37,674 bases of DNA from Candidatus Zixiibacteriota bacterium (GCA_016199865.1 JACQFV010000005.1:1-37674), one strand, 5' to 3'. Shown: positions 35,620-37,674, counted from the first letter of the stretch. Notes: generated from the sequence alone by a model not told the origin. Program-made: numbers and translations.

Positions 35620-35707
35620 GGAGAGGTGGCCGAGTCGGCTTAAGGCAGCTGCCTGCTAAGCAGTTAGTGGGGAAACCCGCTCCCGGGTTCGAATCCCGGC
35701 CTCTCCG
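35620..35707 (+). tRNA. tRNA-Ser (anticodon GCU)
   Basis: An 88-base type II tRNA: acceptor arms GGAGAGG and CCTCTCC with G as discriminator base, anticodon stem-loop CTGCCTGCTAAGCAG with GCT as anticodon, a long variable arm, and the T-loop GGTTCGAATCC. CCA is not encoded. Its 3' end is repeated at 37283-37299. Confidence 0.97.
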
Positions 35708-35709
35708 TT
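35693..35709 (+). repeat. Direct repeat copy 1 (tRNA-Ser 3' end)
   Basis: ATCCCGGCCTCTCCGTT, the last bases of tRNA-Ser plus TT, is identical at 37283-37299. In both places a conserved-arm palindrome and a GIY-YIG gene follow. Confidence 0.85.
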
Positions 35710-35712
35710 TTT

Positions 35713-35751
35713 CCTGAGCGAATTTCGGCGGAGCCGAAATGAGTCGAAGGG
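35713..35751 (+). repeat. Palindromic repeat, conserved-arm family, copy B
   Basis: CCTGAGCGA, an 8-bp perfect stem (ATTTCGGC/GCCGAAAT, 3-base loop), then GAGTCGAAGGG. It sits between tRNA-Ser and the first GIY-YIG gene. The right arm supplies GAAGGG seven bases before that gene's ATG and so may act as its ribosome-binding site. Confidence 0.82.
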
Positions 35752-35758
35752 TTACCCG

Positions 35759-36037
35759 ATGACCAACGGACGCAAACCTTGGTTCGTTTATCTCGTTCGC
35801 TGTCGAGATGGCTCGATCTATGCAGGAATCACCGACGACATCAACGCGCGGATTAAGAAACACAACAGCGGCAAGGGCGCCACGTATACCGCTCAACGCC
35901 GTCCGGTGACGCTCCTGTTTTCCGAACCTCATCCCGATCAGAGTAGTGCTCGCCGTCGGGAGATTCAATTGAAGGGCTGGACAAGGGAAAAGAAGGAACA
36001 ACTCATTGCGGGTTTCCCTCGACCTCACTCGGGATGA
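35759..36037 (+). CDS. GIY-YIG endonuclease-domain protein (UPF0213/YhbQ-like), copy 1
   Basis: A 92-residue single-domain protein of the GIY-YIG superfamily (URI/UPF0213 group). The catalytic features are VYLVRC with the two-strand motif SIYAGIT (the GIY-YIG equivalent, Tyr and Ile-Tyr), Arg31 in the helix (INARIKKHN), YTAQRRPV, and a Glu in the helix RREIQLK that should bind the metal. The start is ATG 35759. A conserved-arm palindrome lies immediately upstream and a stem-less version of the same arms overlaps its 3' end at 36016-36033. It is about 58% identical, without gaps in a hand alignment, to the copy at 37372. Role of the subgroup is unsettled; nuclease activity is predicted. Confidence 0.9.
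   Translation: MTNGRKPWFVYLVRCRDGSIYAGITDDINARIKKHNSGKGATYTAQRRPVTLLFSEPHPDQSSARRREIQLKGWTREKKEQLIAGFPRPHSG
36016..36033 (-). repeat. Stem-less relic of the conserved-arm palindrome, copy D
   Basis: On the minus strand CCCGAGTGAG is followed directly by GTCGAGGG: both arms of the family without the palindromic stem. It overlaps the last codons of GIY-YIG copy 1, in inverse orientation to copy B. Confidence 0.45.
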
Positions 36038-36165
36038 ATCCCTCGGAGGAGTTCGGGATAGACGAATCACGGTCTCTCCACCATAAGAAAATGGCACACC
36101 AGCACCCGGCCCTACCGGACGTGTTGTATTGGTTGAGTGAAGAGAGGGTCTGCACCCAAAGTGGA

Positions 36166-36182
36166 ATCTGAAGACTTCAGAT
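36166..36182. repeat. Palindrome across the DUF1801 start codon
   Basis: ATCTGAAG-A-CTTCAGAT, 8-bp arms around one base, with its last two bases inside the ATG at 36181. It occupies the place where a ribosome-binding site should be. Confidence 0.6.
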
Positions 36183-36558
36183 GAAGAAACCGATCAGCGT
36201 CGACGCGTACATCGCCGCGGCACCCAGGGAAGTGCGGGGAAGACTGAATCAGGTTCGCTCAGCAATCAGGAAAGCAGCCCCCAAAGCGATGGAAAGAATA
36301 AGCTACGGGATGCCTTTCTACGAGTACGGGGGTTCGGGCTACAAGGGTCGATTGATTTACTTTGCCGCGTTCAAAGAACACATCGGCGTGTTCATACCAC
36401 CGTCGCAGGGGGCGGTACCGCGTGAAATGGAGATGTATCGAACCGCCAAGTCTTCATTTCGTTTCCCGCTGAAAGAGCCGATCCCGCTGGGAGTGATCAG
36501 CAGAACGGTGAAGCAACTGGTAAGGCAAAGAGTCGCGGCAAACAGAATGAAGTCATGA
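36181..36558 (+). CDS. DUF1801 / YdhG-like family protein
   Basis: A 125-residue soluble protein of the DUF1801 (YdhG/Fra-like, 'iron chaperone' in some annotations) family. Seen features are the N-terminal SVDAYIAAAPREVRGRLNQV helix, AIRKAAPKAMERISYGMPFY with its conserved Ile-Ser-Tyr-Gly-Met-Pro segment, and LIYFAAFKEHIGVFIPP. Molecular function is not established. The palindrome over its start codon replaces a normal ribosome-binding site; the nearest purine run, GGAA, is about 14 bases away. It lies between the two tRNA-Ser 3'-end repeats, so it may be part of an acquired segment. Confidence 0.85.
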   Translation: MKKPISVDAYIAAAPREVRGRLNQVRSAIRKAAPKAMERISYGMPFYEYGGSGYKGRLIYFAAFKEHIGVFIPPSQGAVPREMEMYRTAKSSFRFPLKEPIPLGVISRTVKQLVRQRVAANRMKS

Positions 36559-36616
36559 TCGTGTTGCGGACAAGTTAAGGGTCTTGGAAGCACGTTTCAG
36601 ATCTGGATAACGACCT

Positions 36617-37114
36617 GTGAAGAGCAGAACAATACTGATCGCCATGGCGGTCGCGGCTTTCGAGGTAGCAGGGCTTTTTCTCTTCGGACGACCAGGCGGC
36701 CGTCCTGAGCGTCTACCGAAGGGTACTCCAGCCGAATTCAATCTCATCTTCAAGTATGACGGAAGCGTGCTGAATACCTTTGAGCATACCTATACCAAGG
36801 ACATGGTGGGTGATCCCTCCATCACGATCAGGTTTGAACTTTCGCAGAGCGAACTGGCCCAAGTCTATCAGAAAATATATGACTTGGATCCATACGATGT
36901 CGGCCAACGGACGAGTGGGAATGGCGCGAGAATCCCCTGCTCGTACTTCTTCCTGAGAGTTCAGGTTGATTCAACCACGAAAGAAATGTCGTGGAGTGAT
37001 TGCCGGGGATTGGTGAACGACACACTGCAGCAGTTGACCGAGTACATCATCTCAGTAATTGAGTCAAAAGAAGACTACAAGAGACTGCCGGCGCCAAGAT
37101 TCTTTCGCTATTGA
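36617..37114 (+). CDS. Hypothetical membrane-anchored or exported protein
   Basis: I do not recognise this 165-residue protein. It has a GTG start at 36617 (no strong ribosome-binding site; an ATG nine codons later is possible), an N-terminal hydrophobic segment (about 5-24) that could be a signal peptide or anchor, and a mixed alpha/beta remainder with two cysteines (in RIPCSYFF and WSDCRG) that might form a disulfide outside the cytoplasm. Base composition is lower in G+C than its surroundings: two 60-base lines counted here (36781-36900) give about 43-48%, against about 63% for a line in the aconitase gene. This fits a transferred origin. Confidence 0.6.
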   Translation: MKSRTILIAMAVAAFEVAGLFLFGRPGGRPERLPKGTPAEFNLIFKYDGSVLNTFEHTYTKDMVGDPSITIRFELSQSELAQVYQKIYDLDPYDVGQRTSGNGARIPCSYFFLRVQVDSTTKEMSWSDCRGLVNDTLQQLTEYIISVIESKEDYKRLPAPRFFRY

Positions 37115-37282
37115 TGATACCCGGAGGGATTTCCTGCCAAAGAGAAACTCAACATCGCCGATTCTGCTCTGGTTCCCGCGCATCTTTCGTGTGGACAAGA
37201 CGAGGCCACTCAATTGTCAACGGAAATGCAACGCCATGAAAATGGTTCCCGGGCTTACGCTGATGGCGGCGGCAATCGAGGC

Positions 37283-37299
37283 ATCCCGGCCTCTCCGTT
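37283..37299 (+). repeat. Direct repeat copy 2 (tRNA-Ser 3'-end remnant)
   Basis: Identical to 35693-35709. Upstream bases (ATCGAGGC) only loosely recall the T-loop, so this is a fragment, not a second tRNA. It lies in a 257-base gap (37115-37371) that otherwise holds palindrome copy C and no gene. Confidence 0.85.
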
Positions 37300-37302
37300 C
37301 AT

Positions 37303-37341
37303 CCCGAGCGAGTTCCGCCTCTGGCGGAACGAGTCGAGGGA
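37303..37341 (+). repeat. Palindromic repeat, conserved-arm family, copy C
   Basis: CCCGAGCGA, an 8-bp perfect stem (GTTCCGCC/GGCGGAAC, 3-base loop), then GAGTCGAGGGA. Same distance after the tRNA-Ser 3' end as copy B; stem sequence differs from copy B but still pairs perfectly. Confidence 0.82.
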
Positions 37342-37371
37342 CTTATCCTGAACGATTCCCGAGATAAACGA

Positions 37372-37650
37372 ATGCCCAACGCCCGCAATCCCTGGTATGT
37401 CTACCTTCTCCGCTGTTCTGACGGTTCCATCTACACCGGAATATCGAAAGACGTTGACACCCGGGTGAAGAAGCACAATGCCGGTGCCGGTGCCGTCTAC
37501 ACGGCCCAGCGGCGTCCTGTATCTCTGATATACCAAGAACGACACCGCAACCAGAGTTCGGCGATGGTGAGAGAACGGCAGATCAAGCGGCTGAGGAAGG
37601 CCCAGAAAGAAGTCCTCGCCTTGGGATCGCCCCGGCTGCATTCGCAATGA
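37372..37650 (+). CDS. GIY-YIG endonuclease-domain protein (UPF0213/YhbQ-like), copy 2
   Basis: A 92-residue paralogue of the protein at 35759, equal in length. VYLLRC with SIYTGIS gives the GIY-YIG pair; Arg31 (VDTRVKKHN), YTAQRRPV and the helix VRERQIKRL with its Glu are kept, so it looks active. Its start is ATG 37372, 30 bases after palindrome copy C; a sequence TCCTGAACGA, close to the palindrome's left arm, lies in that spacer. The gene ends 24 bases before the window edge, so whether a further repeat follows cannot be seen. Confidence 0.9.
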   Translation: MPNARNPWYVYLLRCSDGSIYTGISKDVDTRVKKHNAGAGAVYTAQRRPVSLIYQERHRNQSSAMVRERQIKRLRKAQKEVLALGSPRLHSQ

Positions 37651-37674
37651 GAAGCCCGCACTCCGCGCAAGATT

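Follow-up and report, generated by a model that had tools for sequence, protein, structure and literature searches.

Introduction

Mobile endonuclease genes of fungal mitochondria bring with them a replacement 3' end of the target gene, which keeps the target functional. SegB, a free-standing GIY-YIG homing endonuclease of phage T4/T6, was reported to cut in tRNA-containing sequence (PMC13096335). In integrase islands, the 3' ends of tRNA genes can be displaced as repeats, attL/attR (PMC9897764).

Here a stretch of 37,674 nt from Candidatus Zixiibacteriota bacterium (GCA_016199865.1, JACQFV010000005.1:1-37674; contig C53 of genome G000), hereafter the window, was compared with 129 genomes of its class, many of which are probably metagenome assemblies. 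E-values from single-genome searches and parsimony counts are descriptive. The window probably contains a miniature mobile element of the homing type, a nuclease gene with palindromic ends that resides in tRNA genes; it is present twice, and the second copy is degenerate.

Results

Organization of the window locus

A preliminary description of this DNA had noted that a tRNA-Ser 3' end, a palindrome and a GIY-YIG gene occur twice in the same order. The repeat was recovered as described, with 17 identical bases of the tRNA-Ser 3' end (ATCCCGGCCTCTCCGTT) at 35693-35709 and 37283-37299, and it continues beyond these bases through both palindromes at 78% identity. In copy 1, tRNA-Ser(GCT) is followed by 5 bases, an imperfect palindrome of 39 nt and a GIY-YIG gene encoding 92 residues. 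The tRNA gene preceding it is complete, a point absent from the preliminary description. Copy 2, at 37283-37650, has the same order but retains just the last bases of the tRNA. The features of the locus are as follows, with the evidence for each in brackets.

35620..35707, + strand: intact tRNA-Ser(GCT) gene, host of the putative element (ARAGORN; Rfam RF00005)
35690..35707, + strand: left direct repeat, running from the T-loop to the tRNA 3' end, CGAATCCCGGCCTCTCCG (sequence; relatives share the junction)
35713..35751, + strand: palindrome 1, putative left end of the element, CCTGAGCGA...GTCGAAGGG (pattern searches, fold)
35759..36037, + strand: GIY-YIG nuclease gene 1, 92 aa, UPF0213/YhbQ-YazA type (ORF, Pfam, solved structures)
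36016..36033, - strand: relic of an inverted palindrome that makes up the 3' end of gene 1 and encodes the C-terminus ..PRPHSG (sequence, self-comparison)
36040..36057, - strand: second degenerate inverted palindrome, putative right end (sequence; G001 has two inverted copies)
36063..36083, + strand: right direct repeat, degenerate tRNA 3' end, CGAATCACGGTCTCTCCACCA (sequence; intact counterparts in relatives)
36181..36558, + strand: DUF1801 ORF between both units, outside the conserved unit (Pfam; absent from relatives' units)
37283..37299, + strand: 17 nt of the tRNA-Ser 3' end, bounding copy 2 on the left (self-comparison)
37303..37340, + strand: palindrome 2, CCCGAGCGAG...GAGTCGAGGG (self-comparison, fold, relatives)
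37372..37650, + strand: GIY-YIG nuclease gene 2, encoding 92 aa with 58% identity to protein 1 (ORF, Pfam, alignment)

The length of 92 aa and the 58% identity of the two proteins, both given earlier, were confirmed by alignment, and proteins 1 and 2 match the Pfam GIY-YIG domain with E-values of 2.5e-19 and 2e-17. The palindromes were also said to keep their arms and self-complementarity. The outer arms are largely conserved and the inner stem carries compensating substitutions, TTTCGGC/GCCGAAA in one copy versus TTCCGCC/GGCGGAA in the other. Minimum free energy folds of the two palindromes as single strands are moderately stable beyond shuffled sequences (z -1.3 to -2.7); the structure is supported because the stems co-vary, and not by the fold energy. 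The palindrome relic reported in opposite orientation over the end of gene 1 is real, and intact inverted palindromes occupy the equivalent place in G029, G056 and G059. A tRNA 3'-end repeat after gene 1 had been overlooked. It matches the tRNA 3' end at 15 of 18 bases and closes unit 1.

No right-hand repeat was detectable for copy 2 in the window end or in contig C82 of the same genome. C82 starts with the last bases of the window (37535-37674), so it continues the window's contig end, and its initial fragment was rejected as a further copy of the element. The ORF immediately after gene 2 on this continuation looks, by eye, like an amino-acid transporter. At the gathering score, Rfam returned the tRNA only, with no self-splicing intron around the nuclease gene; the tRNA gene is intact.

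The unit and its tRNA junction in related genomes

In relatives, the unit spans about 350-480 nt and runs from an intact tRNA-Ser through a palindrome, a GIY-YIG gene and an inverted palindrome to a tRNA 3'-end repeat. Homologs from a protein search directly follow tRNA-Ser genes with GCT, GGA, CGA and TGA anticodons, and also tRNA-Gln and tmRNA. The window's own lineage is labelled A; the labels of lineages A-D were read off a 203-protein tree based on a short alignment, in which many forks are unresolved. Lineage-A copies away from tRNA genes or without a palindrome were found at L010, L025, L026, L028 and L031.

At least ten loci, belonging to the isoacceptors Ser(GCT), Ser(GGA), Ser(CGA) and Ser(TGA), carry direct repeats 18-23 nt long that reproduce the tRNA 3' end next to them and begin at CGAATCC of the T-loop. 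In L008, L009, L011, L012, L013, L016, L019, L022, L024 and L030, the repeat starts at the C of the T-loop, between GGTT and CGAATCC, and the two bases preceding the right repeat differ from the tRNA. One example is the post-gene repeat CGAATCCCAGTCTCTCCGCCAT in L012. Flanking repeats scoring at least 14 were obtained for 44 of 94 class genes versus 12 of 281 mismatched controls. The last codons of the gene (..GFPS..) lie in the inverted palindrome in about a dozen relatives. In L012, L015 and L016 the CCA end of the tRNA itself takes part in the pairing of a first hairpin, with compensating changes, as in CCATTGTC-GACA-GACAATGG and CCACTGCC-ACA-GGCAGTGG. At the level of sequence, the units share a fixed T-loop junction, a restored tRNA and terminal palindromes. 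The tRNA 3'-end repeats that bound the unit point to site-specific insertion in tRNA genes rather than to spreading of the palindrome.

A direct repeat of the tRNA 3' end on both sides of the unit is also a feature of tRNA-integrated islands, and such repeats are typical of integrase islands (PMC9897764). An outside tyrosine recombinase could accordingly have inserted the units at tRNA-Ser attachment sites with the GIY-YIG gene as a passenger, and integrase-like ORFs, judged by eye, directly follow tRNA-Ser genes in G040 (L209) and G099 (L229). However, the GIY-YIG gene is the sole gene in the 350-480 nt units and an integrase is absent from them, the divergent lineage B adjoins 5' or internal pieces of tRNA genes, and the linkage of palindrome and gene holds away from tRNA genes too. 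We consider insertion by an integrase highly unlikely.

Linkage of palindromes to GIY-YIG genes

The preliminary description proposed that GIY-YIG genes and palindromes form a linked unit, as RAYT transposases and REPs do, and suggested measuring palindrome enrichment beside the genes. The enrichment was found. The long-palindrome pattern TGAGCGA-N(6-36)-GAGTCGAAGG, searched in the 129 class genomes with the reversed pattern as control, gave 22 matches in 9 genomes and 1 match for the control. When matches joining two short palindromes are omitted, 15 to 16 single hairpins are counted, 16 being reached when the copy that follows the first gene of G004 is added. All but two (14 of 16) have a lineage-A GIY-YIG gene no more than 700 nt away. 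Three hairpins belong to G000, two to G001, one to G003, six to G004 and one each to G029, G056 and G059, those of the last three genomes being inverted and located at the right end of the gene. A protein-independent search for a tRNA T-loop and 3' end followed by the palindrome returned six matches in the 129 genomes and none in the control, and all six directly precede a GIY-YIG gene.

The density of TGAGC...CGAA palindromes with paired outer stems is 1.4-1.8 per kb within 150 nt of class genes versus 0.04-0.07 at 1-1.5 kb. For palindromes of the same core at loci of other phyla the values are 0.57-0.97 versus 0.04-0.06 per kb at the same distances, and scrambled-core controls are near zero at class and other-phylum loci alike. 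Among 72 core sequences collected near GIY-YIG genes without requiring pairing, 38 have four perfect outer pairs, compared with a mean of 4.3 and a maximum of 10 in 500 trials with shuffled 3' stems. Chance is excluded because of the hairpin-gene linkage, the palindrome density near the genes and the six-of-six result of the tRNA-plus-palindrome search, which give strong support to a linked unit of GIY-YIG gene and palindrome.

In lineage C, the palindrome that flanks the gene also occurs scattered through the genome, and its stems co-vary. G001 holds 25 copies at up to 2 mismatches, and the three exact ones all flank its GIY-YIG gene. The exact palindrome is likewise concentrated at the gene in other genomes, with 3 of 14 copies there in G040, 3 of 8 in G056 and 1 of 1 in G049. 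At L194 (G001:C15:107446), a lineage-C gene lies between two nearly identical palindromic doublets of about 100 nt, an arrangement resembling a composite element. The two hairpins away from lineage-A genes are both in G000, within a REPIN-like repeat with inverted ends. This repeat, present in two copies in the window genome (L245, G000:C90:9462; L248, G000:C113:9150), reads GTCATCC-palindrome-ATCTC...GAGAT-inverted palindrome-ATGAC.

These patterns bear on a RAYT/REP-like explanation, by which the GIY-YIG protein acts on the folded single-stranded palindrome and spreads palindromes, with tRNA 3' ends merely as convenient landing sites. It would account for one-core, co-varying palindromes that reach, within 150 nt of GIY-YIG genes, 14-50 times the density found 1-1.5 kb off, for the exact palindromes around the lineage C gene with dispersed stem variants, and for the REPIN-like doublets of the window genome. 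The palindrome of the window lineage, however, is hardly dispersed, its two solo copies in G000 both lying inside another repeat, and tRNA repeats with a fixed junction require a target-specific step. As an account of the element, we regard RAYT/REP-like spreading as rather unlikely. The likeness to RAYT and REP drawn in the preliminary description is apt for other lineages of the class and holds best for lineage C with its dispersed co-varying palindromes; for the window lineage it misses the main feature, the tRNA 3'-end boundaries.

Other GIY-YIG lineages and the ordinary clade

The 203-protein tree separates the lineages associated with tRNA genes or palindromes from a 41-member ordinary YhbQ-type clade. 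Genes of lineage B, including loci outside the class, adjoin tRNA-Asp, Val, Ala, Gly, Ser, Glu, Tyr and Met genes or pieces of them. They are often accompanied by a broken tRNA copy in which a small hairpin, e.g. TCCGCC..GGCGGA, takes the place of the D-, anticodon- or T-loop. Broken-tRNA loci were seen in several phyla (L004 on contig C65 of the window genome, the second gene of L012, L170, L186, L203, L208, L306, L310, L319 and L322). GIY-YIG units in other phyla are located at tRNA-Arg, Gln and Asn.

The window genome has five GIY-YIG genes, two at tRNA-Ser pieces, one at tRNA-Met and one at tmRNA. The gene after tmRNA (L005, C126) is diverged, and the tmRNA 3' end TTCGATTCCCCCCGCC(T/G)CCA is repeated past it. 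The fifth gene (L003, C171) is of lineage C type and directly follows an ORF with a resemblance, judged by eye, to mutL. The relatives found in phages and plasmids are distant, with 54% and 49% identity or less among the best matches listed, and no annotated tRNA lies beside the phage gene inspected (Rhizobium phage RHph_Y65).

Linkage to tRNA genes was rejected as a property of all UPF0213 genes, as only 3 of 80 loci had a tRNA within 400 nt upstream; these loci came from a general consensus query of genome contigs, are mostly ordinary YhbQ-type and were then used as a control.

The protein is clearly related to UPF0213 (1ZG2, E 1.9e-18), and hairpins immediately 3' of tRNAs are common. The locus could thus be an ordinary duplication, in which a tRNA-Ser flank was copied together with a YhbQ-type housekeeping gene, the palindrome serving to terminate or process the tRNA. 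This explanation, already disfavoured, is very improbable given that the unit recurs at four tRNA-Ser isoacceptors, at tmRNA and at tRNA-Arg, Gln and Asn of other phyla, that inverted palindromes lie at the 3' end of the gene, and that the 41 genes of the ordinary clade have neither a tRNA neighbour nor the core palindrome.

Occupied and unoccupied tRNA genes, and conservation of the nuclease

Both occupied and unoccupied tRNA alleles exist among the class genomes. The tRNA-Ser(GCT) genes of G005-G008 carry no element. G040 and L016 have flanks that are 99% identical as far as the last base of tRNA-Ser(CGA), beyond which the two differ. The vacant tRNA-Ser(CGA) of G040 is the closest vacant site and is not cleanly empty, since an integrase-like ORF (by eye) follows it; a clean empty site with two flanks was not obtained among the class genomes. 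Other elements in the class may also use tRNA-Ser as a landing site.

G004 and G126 show further signs of mobility. Five left palindromes lie between tRNA-Ser and the first of two genes in G004, and three of these belong to units of 94 nt that lack a gene. In G126 the element is complete at tRNA-Ser(TGA), whereas tRNA-Ser(CGA) has the left hairpins without a gene. At L206 (G079:C177), two identical GIY-YIG copies about 430 nt apart lie beside tRNA-Ser(CGA) and share 142 identical nt including part of the tRNA, which is either a recent tandem duplication or an assembly artefact. The tRNA-Ser(GCT) copy of the window family may be one old insertion that was vertically inherited.

Y11, Y21, G23, R31 and E68 are invariant in the subfamily and constitute the intact motif residues of GIY-YIG. 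dN/dS is 0.04-0.23 in most resolvable pairs, with 0.35 and 0.69 (L015/L016) in two very close pairs, which are few. Such conservation might also be expected of a domesticated gene useful to the host, e.g. one promoting tRNA gene amplification, as GIY-YIG enzymes of the SegB type near phage tRNA genes are reported to do (PMC13096335). The presence of the gene in the class is patchy, however, relatives have unoccupied tRNA genes, and the tRNA 3' end alone is amplified, not the tRNA itself. Domestication accordingly has a very small probability.

Discussion

The layout recurs in related genomes from several phyla. It looks like that of a family of miniature mobile elements, so far undescribed, which would take up residence in tRNA genes and leave them intact. 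Its unit would consist of the left palindrome, one GIY-YIG nuclease gene encoding the catalytic domain only, and an inverted right palindrome that holds the 3' end of the gene. From this arrangement we infer cutting and movement in the following way. The nuclease would cut an unoccupied tRNA gene at or near the T-loop, and an occupied copy would serve as the template for repair of the break. The inserted DNA would supply a fresh tRNA 3' end, by which the tRNA stays functional while the old end is displaced rightwards. The palindromes may mark the ends of the element, and in the course of the reaction they probably fold or are bound by the nuclease. As a candidate cut site, the T-loop junction is at least as good as the palindrome.

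It is nearly as likely as not that the element belongs to a broad undescribed superfamily of GIY-YIG mini-elements in which the nuclease is partnered with TGAGC...CGAA palindromes whose stems co-vary. Some lineages would home into and restore tRNA or tmRNA genes, and others would be the source of dispersed bacterial palindromes like CATTCTGAGCGAAGCGAAGAATC and CCCTGAGCTTGTCGAAGGG.

No description of the element was found in the open-access literature. Searches of open-access PMC articles gave nothing joining GIY-YIG with 'repetitive extragenic palindromic', no discussion of the palindrome strings (some matches were off topic by title) and no treatment of UPF0213 or COG2827 as mobile elements. 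TGAGC...CGAA palindromes occur in several phyla examined, and a mobilising enzyme for them was not found in the open-access literature searched. A tight link across phyla to a 90-aa nuclease would make the origin of these palindromes testable. If the proposed homing mechanism is true, a nuclease made up of the catalytic domain alone would insert DNA at one set position of the T-loop and rebuild the tRNA. Few autonomous site-specific elements would be as small, and it might serve as a tool. The mechanism would further account for the tRNA gene fragments and hairpin-bearing pseudo-tRNAs by which annotation is misled.

Comparison with known systems

As in RAYT (TnpA-REP) systems with REP/REPIN, a single small nuclease gene lies between palindromes with a conserved core and co-varying stems, and lineage C shares their dispersal. 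The enzyme here is GIY-YIG, whereas that of RAYT is HUH/Y1; a TnpA-REP transposase gene is absent from the unit, which contains the GIY-YIG gene alone. Boundaries derived from a tRNA, and a palindrome inverted into the 3' end of the gene, also set the element apart from RAYT/REP.

The protein fits UPF0213 (YhbQ/YazA) in having a short single GIY-YIG domain, with 1ZG2 and 1YWL as the nearest solved structures, but differs from the ordinary clade of that family in its linkage to tRNA genes and palindromes. In the fungal mitochondrial case the targets are protein genes in mitochondria, and palindromic ends are not known from that system.

Like homing endonucleases, the protein belongs to a known nuclease family and has intact motif residues. 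The tie of a GIY-YIG enzyme to tRNA genes is shared with SegB (PMC13096335), whereas the element is chromosomal, encodes the catalytic domain only (~92 aa), and has palindromic ends and a duplicated tRNA 3' end. The intact tRNA on one side and the displaced tRNA 3' end on the other are as in integrase islands in tRNA genes (PMC9897764); unlike those islands, the element is shorter than 500 nt and has no integrase, and other GIY-YIG lineages sit at 5' or internal tRNA pieces. Neither SegB nor integrase islands match the whole element. Each component of the proposed mechanism has a precedent.
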